Part shown: piece after piece, positions 18,954 to 27,461 of the stretch
How positions within the stretch are numbered: the stretch's first letter is position 1
Layout: each line of letters starts with the position of its first letter
NCBI GenBank assembly: GCA_015056385.1
Contig: SVGI01000011.1
Coordinates: 1-38,886, forward strand
Source: Clostridiales bacterium
GTDB lineage: Bacteria > Bacillota > Clostridia > HGM11327
DNA: 38,886 nucleotides
Reading direction: 5' to 3'
Made by a program: the position numbers and the translations under genes
The notes under the pieces: model-generated
The model's input: the letters and a program-made list of their open reading frames with translations, nothing else
Database searches by the model: none
What the model was told of the DNA's origin: nothing

Positions 18954-18965
18954 TTGGAGGATAGC

Positions 18966-19044
18966 GTGAAAAACATTTGTTCACGCCGGAAATGAAAAAC
19001 ATTTGTTCACGCCAGAAGCGAGAAACATTTGTTCACGCCGGAAA
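18966..19044 (+). repeat. Three tandem 26-bp repeats (tgaaaaacatttgttcacgccggaaa)
   Basis: Copies at 18967-18992, 18993-19018 and 19019-19044 with 2-4 mismatches. The core GCGTGAA...TTCACGC is an inverted repeat. Confidence 0.9.
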
Positions 19045-19076
19045 GGAAGGCTTTCGATAAACGAAAGCCATGGTTA
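19041..19076 (+). repeat. 36-bp direct repeat, copy 1
   Basis: GAAAGGAAGGCTTTCGATAAACGAAAGCCATGGTTA; contains hairpin GGCTTTCG-ataaa-CGAAAGCC and an ATG. Identical to copy 2. Confidence 0.95.
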
Positions 19077-19077
19077 G

Positions 19078-19128
19078 GGTTTTGTGGCCTTCGCCACCAA
19101 AGTGGTGGCGATTTTGCAGAGCAAAACC
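19078..19128 (+). other. Nested/alternative hairpin module between the two 36-bp repeats
   Basis: GGTTTTG/CAAAACC outer stem enclosing TCGCCACC-aaagt-GGTGGCGA. Alternatives GTGGC-cttc-GCCAC and TTTTGC-aga-GCAAAA compete for the same bases. Confidence 0.7.
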
Positions 19129-19143
19129 AGCCCCAATTCCCCA

Positions 19144-19179
19144 GAAAGGAAGGCTTTCGATAAACGAAAGCCATGGTTA
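19144..19179 (+). repeat. 36-bp direct repeat, copy 2
   Basis: Exact second copy of 19041-19076, offset 103 bp. Confidence 0.95.
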
Positions 19180-19186
19180 TTTAAGT

Positions 19187-20200
19187 ATGAGAAAAATAAA
19201 AGCATTGATGCTGTTTGTTCTTGCTGCGGTAATGGTTATTACCTGCACAGGATGTACGTCTATGTACCTCGATTTGCCCACCTATAAGGGCATAGAGGTA
19301 AAATACAGTAAGATCTCCGTAACAGACGAAAAGGTTACCGAAAGAATAGATACCGTACGCGATGAGCATGCCACAGGCGGATATATTACAGACAGAGGCG
19401 TTCTCAACGGGGATACCGTTGTTATGGACTACGAGGGCTATATAGACGGAATACAGTTTGAGGGCGGTACAGCCTCCGGCTCAAGCCTTGTTATAGGCTC
19501 CGGCGAGTTTATTCCCGGATTTGAGGAAGGGCTTATAGGCCATAAAACCGGCGAGGAATTTTCTATATCCGTTACATTCCCCGATGATTACCATAAGGCA
19601 ACCTTAAGAGGCAAGGTAGCAGAGTTCAAAATCACCCTTAAATCAATATACAGAAAGGACCTTCCCGAGCTTACAGATGCCTTTGTACAGTCTGTATCCG
19701 ATTGCGAAACCGTTGAGGAATACAAGGCTTATATAAAGGACCTTCTTGAAAAGGAAAATCTTTCAGGTATAGCATGGGAGAATCTTCTTAAAACCGCAAG
19801 CTTTAAGGTATATCCGTCAAAGAGAGTAAAGGAGCGCTGCGCCGAAATGGATGCCTACTACCAGGAGTATGCCGATTACTACGGCATGACTGTTGAGGAA
19901 TTTATGAAGCAGCAGTACGGCGTAAGCCCCGAGCAGTATGCAAAGGACAGGCTTGAATACGGTGAAACTGCCGCAAAGGAGGACCTTGTATTCGAGCATA
20001 TTGTTGCAGAGGAGAAATTCGTTATAACAGACGAGCTTTACGCTGAAAAAAGCAAGGAATACGCAAAGCTTTACGGCTATGAATCCCTTGAGGAATTCGA
20101 GGAGGCCTACGGCAGAGAGCTTATAGAGGAAAGCATTCTTTGGGACCTTATGCTTGAGGTTGTGGCAAACAACGCAGTTATAACCGGAAAAGACAAGTAA
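19187..20200 (+). CDS. Trigger-factor-like FKBP-type peptidyl-prolyl isomerase, predicted lipoprotein
   Basis: MRKIKALMLFVLAAVMVITCTGC signal/lipobox; GDTVVMDYEGYIDGIQFEGGTA...GSGEFIPGFEEGLIGHKTGEE FKBP domain; trigger-factor C-terminal-like helices. Start 19187 chosen; the track start 19070 lies in the repeat. Confidence 0.85.
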   Translation: MRKIKALMLFVLAAVMVITCTGCTSMYLDLPTYKGIEVKYSKISVTDEKVTERIDTVRDEHATGGYITDRGVLNGDTVVMDYEGYIDGIQFEGGTASGSSLVIGSGEFIPGFEEGLIGHKTGEEFSISVTFPDDYHKATLRGKVAEFKITLKSIYRKDLPELTDAFVQSVSDCETVEEYKAYIKDLLEKENLSGIAWENLLKTASFKVYPSKRVKERCAEMDAYYQEYADYYGMTVEEFMKQQYGVSPEQYAKDRLEYGETAAKEDLVFEHIVAEEKFVITDELYAEKSKEYAKLYGYESLEEFEEAYGRELIEESILWDLMLEVVANNAVITGKDK

Positions 20201-27118: not shown

Positions 27119-27454
27119 TGAGCGGGTCAGGCGGTCGCGTGCCTTTACGGTGCGAGGAAAGTCCGGGCTCCACAGAGCAAGGGTGCCGGATAACGTCCGG
27201 TGAAGGCGACTTTAAGGAAAGTGCAACAGAAAATAACCGCCGTGCGTTATGCGCGGTAAGGGTGAAAAGGCGAGGTAAGGGCTCACCGCATTCCCGGAGA
27301 CGGGCGTGGCAGTGTAAACCCCACCCGGAGCAAGGCTGAGGGCAAAAAACGGTTGCTCGCCGTGTCCTCGTGAGTGCCGCTTAAGCCACTCGGCAACGGG
27401 TGGCTTAGATAGATGACCGTCCAACGACAGAACCCGGCTTACCGATCCGTCTCA
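27119..27454 (+). ncRNA. rnpB: RNase P RNA
   Basis: GAGGAAAGTCCGGGCTCCACAGAGCA (P4/CR-I region), ACAGAACCCGGCTTA (P4' / CR-V), terminal P1 pairing TGAGCGG/CCGTCTCA. Confidence 0.95.
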
Positions 27455-27461
27455 ACAATTT

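Follow-up and report, generated by a model that had tools for sequence, protein, structure and literature searches.

A dispersed, probably mobile hairpin element with its own Shine-Dalgarno sequence lies between ribosome-binding site and start codon in Clostridia

The initiation region of a lipoprotein gene in a Clostridiales bacterium houses a short, structured repeat. This repeat is dispersed through the genome, lies between the Shine-Dalgarno sequence (SD) and the start codon of its genes, is missing from corresponding sites in sister species of another carrier, folds into covarying helices, and conserves both an internal SD and the distance from this SD to the start codon. We consider it, with a probability of roughly 70%, to be a short non-autonomous mobile element of Clostridia that sits in sense orientation in the spacer between SD and start codon, and whose own SD, bridged by a hairpin (H2), keeps the gene translatable.

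Results

Structure of the window copy

The stretch analysed here (the window) spans 38,886 nucleotides, and the parts of its copy are listed in Table 1. The left limit falls on TAG right behind the native SD, and the right limit lies about 6 nt upstream of the ATG. As assembled in this draft genome, the copy is a compound form whose H1 is expanded and whose SD-H2 unit is doubled, giving the order H1 plus two additional half-units, SD-H2, M, SD-H2.

Table 1 Features of the window copy and its surroundings
Feature	Position	Strand	Basis or remark
Native SD GGAGGA of the downstream gene, adjoining the element on the outside	18956-18961	+	Sequence
Element, window copy	18962-19180	+	One of 27 host copies
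H1, left-end hairpin TAGCGTGAA..TTCACGC	18962-18986	+	Sequence, fold; 10/10 pairs covary across copies
Two additional half-copies (3' half of H1), each of 26 bp and in tandem, only in the window copy	18987-19040	+	Repeat analysis
First internal SD-like GAAAGGAA	19041-19048	+	Sequence; most conserved part of the element
First H2 hairpin GGCTTTCG-ATAAA-CGAAAGCC with ATGGTTA tail	19049-19076	+	Sequence, repeats, fold
M module, a three-way junction plus the conserved CCCCAATTCC	19077-19142	+	Host copies, fold, covariation of helices 2-5
Second internal SD AGAAAGGAA	19143-19151	+	Sequence; GAAAGG-to-ATG distance across copies
Second H2 hairpin, interval from SD to start codon	19152-19172	+	Repeats, fold, helix 6 covariation
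Right-end ATGGTTAT (consensus GGTNAT)	19173-19180	+	Conservation across copies
Downstream gene, FKBP-type PPIase / trigger-factor-C lipoprotein; its initiation region houses the element	19187-20200	+	

The first-pass annotation had described three 26-bp tandem units, an exact 36-bp repeat present twice, and a hairpin-rich module between its copies, and all of these were recovered from the sequence. The tandem units occupy 18968-19048 and are 86-93% identical to the first unit. The two copies of the longer repeat, 103 bp apart, read identically across 36 nt (19041-19076 and 19144-19179), and 0 occurrences of its 32-nt core are expected by chance. The proposed hairpin-forming capacity is borne out by a predicted folding energy of -80.3 kcal/mol for the region (z = -5.5 against shuffles).

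The statement that no coding sequence explains the region also holds, although a mechanical ORF (19070-20200) begins inside the element and runs into the lipoprotein gene. This N-terminal extension of the lipoprotein ORF is probably spurious read-through. ORF calling through the element is a likely cause of wrong annotated N-termini. Elsewhere, the window contains an ordinary bacterial RNase P class A RNA gene (27119-27458, 290 bits).

Copies in the host genome

The host genome (G000) is a 1.45 Mb draft in 71 contigs with 84.6% completeness, and a search of it returned the 27 element loci. The full unit runs from H1 through an optional three-way-junction module M, the SD-like AAGAAAGGA and H2 to GGTNAT, and the element measures about 70-175 bp. 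In the consensus of the aligned host copies, H1 is TAGCGTGAAAAATACTTTTTCACGC with a 10-bp stem, M takes up about 65 nt where it occurs, and AAGAAAGGAA is followed by H2 GGCTTTCGAYAAACGAAAGCC, then ATGGTTAT, 4 nt and the start codon of the gene. The internal SD is the best-conserved stretch, invariant or nearly so.

A composite element had been proposed, and this is what the copies display: module loss is frequent, and H1-M-H2, H1-H2, M-H2 and H2-only forms all occur. M is missing in L019, L020, L021, L023, L025 and L026, no recognisable H1 is present in L007, L014 and L017, and L027 consists of H2 alone; L004 ends at a contig edge. Some contigs terminate within element copies.

Distribution in other genomes

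All source genomes are drafts or MAGs. One scan of a species-level genome collection identified a second carrier, RGIG3925 (G060), a MAG from roe-deer caecum with 43 element matches, and 8 of the 59 genomes in its family are carriers. A genome from the host's family but of a different genus (G001) has one copy, and a genome of another family (G162) contains diverged forms. The class-wide model search was positive for at least 5 of 391 genomes, a lower bound because only eight candidates were scored per genome. The suggestion of a dispersed element is supported by the 27 host loci together with the G060 matches and the carriers in its family, and the absence of any other copy, which had been named as the result that would speak against it, was not encountered in the host or its relatives.

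Among viral contigs, the M patterns matched one contig and a search with the H2 pattern gave 0 matches. The viral contig IMGVR_UViG_2236876025_000418 (L191 130-290) bears one complete element, which follows ATGGAGG, precedes the ATG of a phage-like gene and has the same layout with wholly different H1 and 12-bp H2 stems. No element was found in the phage and plasmid collections. In Rfam, nothing matched at the gathering score, and a relaxed threshold gave chance-level matches only.

Placement between SD and start codon

The copies lie on the sense strand, almost always between the gene's own SD and its ATG. For the 28 copies whose two ends were set automatically, an SD core occurs within 16 nt upstream of H1 in 25, compared with 21% of random 16-mers. 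The native SD ends 0-4 nt from the element in 24 of these copies and 7 nt from it in a further one, and the gap from GGTNAT to ATG is exactly 4 nt in 25. When the flanks are rejoined without the element, the spacing between SD and ATG is mostly 4-8 nt, within the native range. The earlier label "intergenic" stands insofar as the copies are outside genes, but it understates a location as specific as the spacer between SD and start codon.

With the loci read individually, a gene start follows in 25 of the 26 host copies whose downstream side is assembled, L008 being the exception and L015 being stopped by a contig end. Of the 21 host copies detected automatically, 20 are followed at the expected distance by an ATG that opens an ORF of 60 aa or more, compared with 2.5% of random positions. 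A looser downstream-ORF test, uninformative in that 48% of random positions satisfy it, was dropped in favour of this strict one. Across genomes, an evident downstream gene is absent at L008, L056, L063 and L121. The downstream genes, named by eye, are unrelated and include nadD, pth, ruvX, nusB, dnaJ, pyrI, rnc, xseB, a nifU-like gene and lipoproteins.

In most copies (for example L012 and L058), the 3' foot of H2 also carries an ATG or GTG, which is 12 nt 5' of the gene start and in frame with it; this upstream ATG sits in GCCATGGTNAT. Where its spacing differs, a stop usually comes at once, as at 19173 in the window (ATG GTT ATT TAA).

Empty sites in sister species

Mobility had been raised as a possibility, and it gains support from near-identical copies in one species and from empty sites in its sisters. 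In a genus of five species, the element was matched in one (G447) only, with five copies that are 96-98% identical. At the first site, the left and right flanks of G447 each align to those of G452 at 76%, and between them G447 has an additional 131 bp where G452 has 3 bp, so that AGGTGAG-GAC-ATG is the empty form and AGGTGAG-[131 bp]-ATG the filled one. This site is empty in G452 (AGCAGGTGAGGACATG), G450 (AGCAGGTGAGGGAATG) and G453 (GGGTGAGGATATG), and reads AGTAGGTGAG-[element]-AAATG in G447.

The second site is empty in G452 and G453. In G450, which yielded no copy of the element, the same position (L147, G450:C42, at the start of a V-ATPase-like operon) has the SD GAAAGGAAA, an unrelated hairpin and then TGGTGTTTAAGATG. 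This H2-like leader, which G450 has of its own, raises the possibility that SD-hairpin leaders occur independently of the mobile element, as a wider class in Clostridia. Orthologues of the lipoprotein gene in the window are distant (about 36% identity); the likely one in G001 is preceded by a plain SD, with the element missing there. Inspection of the element ends and the empty sites revealed no evident terminal inverted repeats or clear target-site duplication; an A-rich duplication of 2-3 nt at the insertion sites is possible.

RNA structure and covariation

A check for conserved RNA structure had been recommended, and covariation backs all six helices of our model. This model comprises H1, a three-way junction (P2, M1, M2) and H2; it was derived from 22 copies in three genomes and used to gather 83 matches for the covariation test. 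In an alignment of these 83 matches that was fitted to the model and so favours it, the paired fraction is 92.2% of cells with letters, and 30 of 37 pairs have changes on both sides. Double-change cells number 220, compared with 52.5 after shuffling, and none of 500 shuffles reaches the observed value. Sliding the pairing partners abolishes the signal. Sub-families with entirely different H1 stems (GCGTGAAAA..., GTTTGAAAG..., GTCTGAAAA...) and H2 stems display the pairing directly. The default fold of RNAalifold, which chose an alternative pairing of GAAAG with CTTTC, was replaced by the six-helix model, which fits the second genome too.

Spacing and a model of translation

The start of GAAAGG lies 39-42 nt from the ATG in nearly all copies with H2, and H2 is predicted to fold stably between the internal SD and the ATG. 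In L061, L120 and L122, which have lost H2, the same SD is 5-9 nt from the ATG. We take AGAAAGGA and the AGAAAGGAA of the window to match the complement of the usual 3' end of 16S rRNA.

Insertion would move the native SD away from the AUG, and the element would bring a replacement, AGAAAGGA, directly 5' of H2. The mRNA of the element is expected to fold as separate hairpins H1, M and H2. Folding of H2 would take out about 21 nt, placing the internal SD about 13 nt from the AUG rather than 34 and thereby leaving the gene translatable. The ribosome may then use the internal SD across H2, and from the sequence we infer that the host gene is kept translated through this SD. The resulting near-neutrality may be the reason why the element spreads. 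The fixed spacing between SD and ATG could partly be a result of a fixed insertion distance.

Discussion

Alternative explanations

Several features would suit a cis-regulatory RNA (a riboswitch, thermosensor or protein-binding leader) of a regulon, with copies kept for translational control. The covariation is strong, the position is exclusively at start codons, and the conserved SD lies beside alternative pairings; a regulatory role is conceivable because a GAAAG/CTTTC hairpin could hide the SD. However, the downstream genes share nothing, modules are freely lost, the element is absent from sister species and Rfam offers no match, and we regard this explanation as unlikely. An assembly artefact deserves next to no weight. 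Every source is a draft or metagenome assembly, and contig ends fall within some of the copies, but this concern, which the first-pass annotation had raised, is contradicted for the element at large by many non-identical copies at distinct loci with coherent flanks in independently assembled genomes, and by the empty-site orthologues.

The mobile reading leaves a choice of mobilisers. Insertion through RNA, dependent on a reverse transcriptase and targeting the initiation region of the mRNA, would account for the exclusive sense orientation and the placement at an mRNA landmark, and reverse transcriptases are present in G000, G444, G446 and G447 and in none of G450-G453. Against it, these enzymes are of four kinds (group II, retron Ec67-like, retron Ec107-like and DRT2) and none was found in the carriers G001, G060, G405, G409, G428 and G430, which makes the idea highly doubtful. 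A REP/BIME-like element moved in trans by an IS200-type (Y1) transposase would likewise be short, hairpin-rich, multicopy and non-coding; yet the transposase is absent from the draft genomes of the carriers G000, G405, G409, G430, G446 and G447, there is no conserved target tetranucleotide, and REPs are not known to lie between SD and AUG or to occupy initiation regions in one orientation. We hold this version to be highly improbable. As common mobilisers, a Y1 transposase was rejected for its absence from several carriers, and a single reverse transcriptase because the types differ and several carriers are without any. The host contig G000:C12 (L184 230-2122) encodes a reverse transcriptase of 631 aa, a retron-type enzyme of the Ec67 (RT-Toprim) family. 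Among the H1-only and partial copies fetched in search of an autonomous version, there were truncated elements only and no gene-containing copy.

Relation to known repeats and split ribosome-binding sites

With dispersed non-coding copies and signs of mobility (empty sites, near-identical copies), the element is best grouped with the short non-autonomous interspersed repeats of BOX type or MITE-like kind. It shares with REP/BIME and MITE repeats a small, hairpin-rich form and a presumed dependence on enzymes in trans, but no terminal inverted repeats were seen and several carriers lack a Y1 transposase. BOX elements of Streptococcus, boxA-(boxB)n-boxC, are regarded as parasitic and of low mobility, and like our element they are short, modular, dispersed and predicted to fold as RNA (PMC3049150). 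Their sequence and modules differ, however; they are enriched between convergent genes rather than restricted to the spacer between SD and AUG, and they are not known to carry an SD for host genes.

The TAACTGA direct repeats of Beggiatoaceae are likewise multicopy and forward, just 5' of the start codons of unrelated genes, which are mostly without an obvious SD (PMC4679880); they are heptamer direct repeats, whereas our element consists of hairpins, and insertion with empty sites is not known for them. In phage T4 genes 38 and 25, a hairpin shortens the distance from SD to AUG from 22 to 5 nt and from 27 to 11 nt, respectively (PMC3014915). The element resembles these split ribosome-binding sites in having a hairpin between SD and AUG, which here would restore a working distance, an arrangement to which sequence, fold and covariation point. 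The T4 cases are single genes, whereas the element is dispersed and probably mobile.

In our search of the open-licence literature, BOX elements, REPs and the TAACTGA repeats came closest, and no published mobile repeat occupying the spacer between SD and AUG emerged. We propose only tentatively that the element represents a distinct mobile class recognising initiation regions, possibly at the RNA level. On inserting between SD and AUG, its members would bring along a hairpin-bridged SD of their own, which could make almost every gene a harmless landing site, and its sub-families in several Clostridia families and one virus would keep the architecture while swapping the hairpin sequences.

Implications

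Mobile repeats are usually tolerated where they are least harmful. This element lies in a stretch of a few nucleotides that is among the most constrained in a gene, and it appears to mend the damage through a ribosome-binding site of its own. It would offer a natural experiment, repeated many times over, on how structured SD-AUG spacers are tolerated. It might also give rise to new translational control of unrelated genes, and it would point to insertion machinery able to recognise initiation regions.
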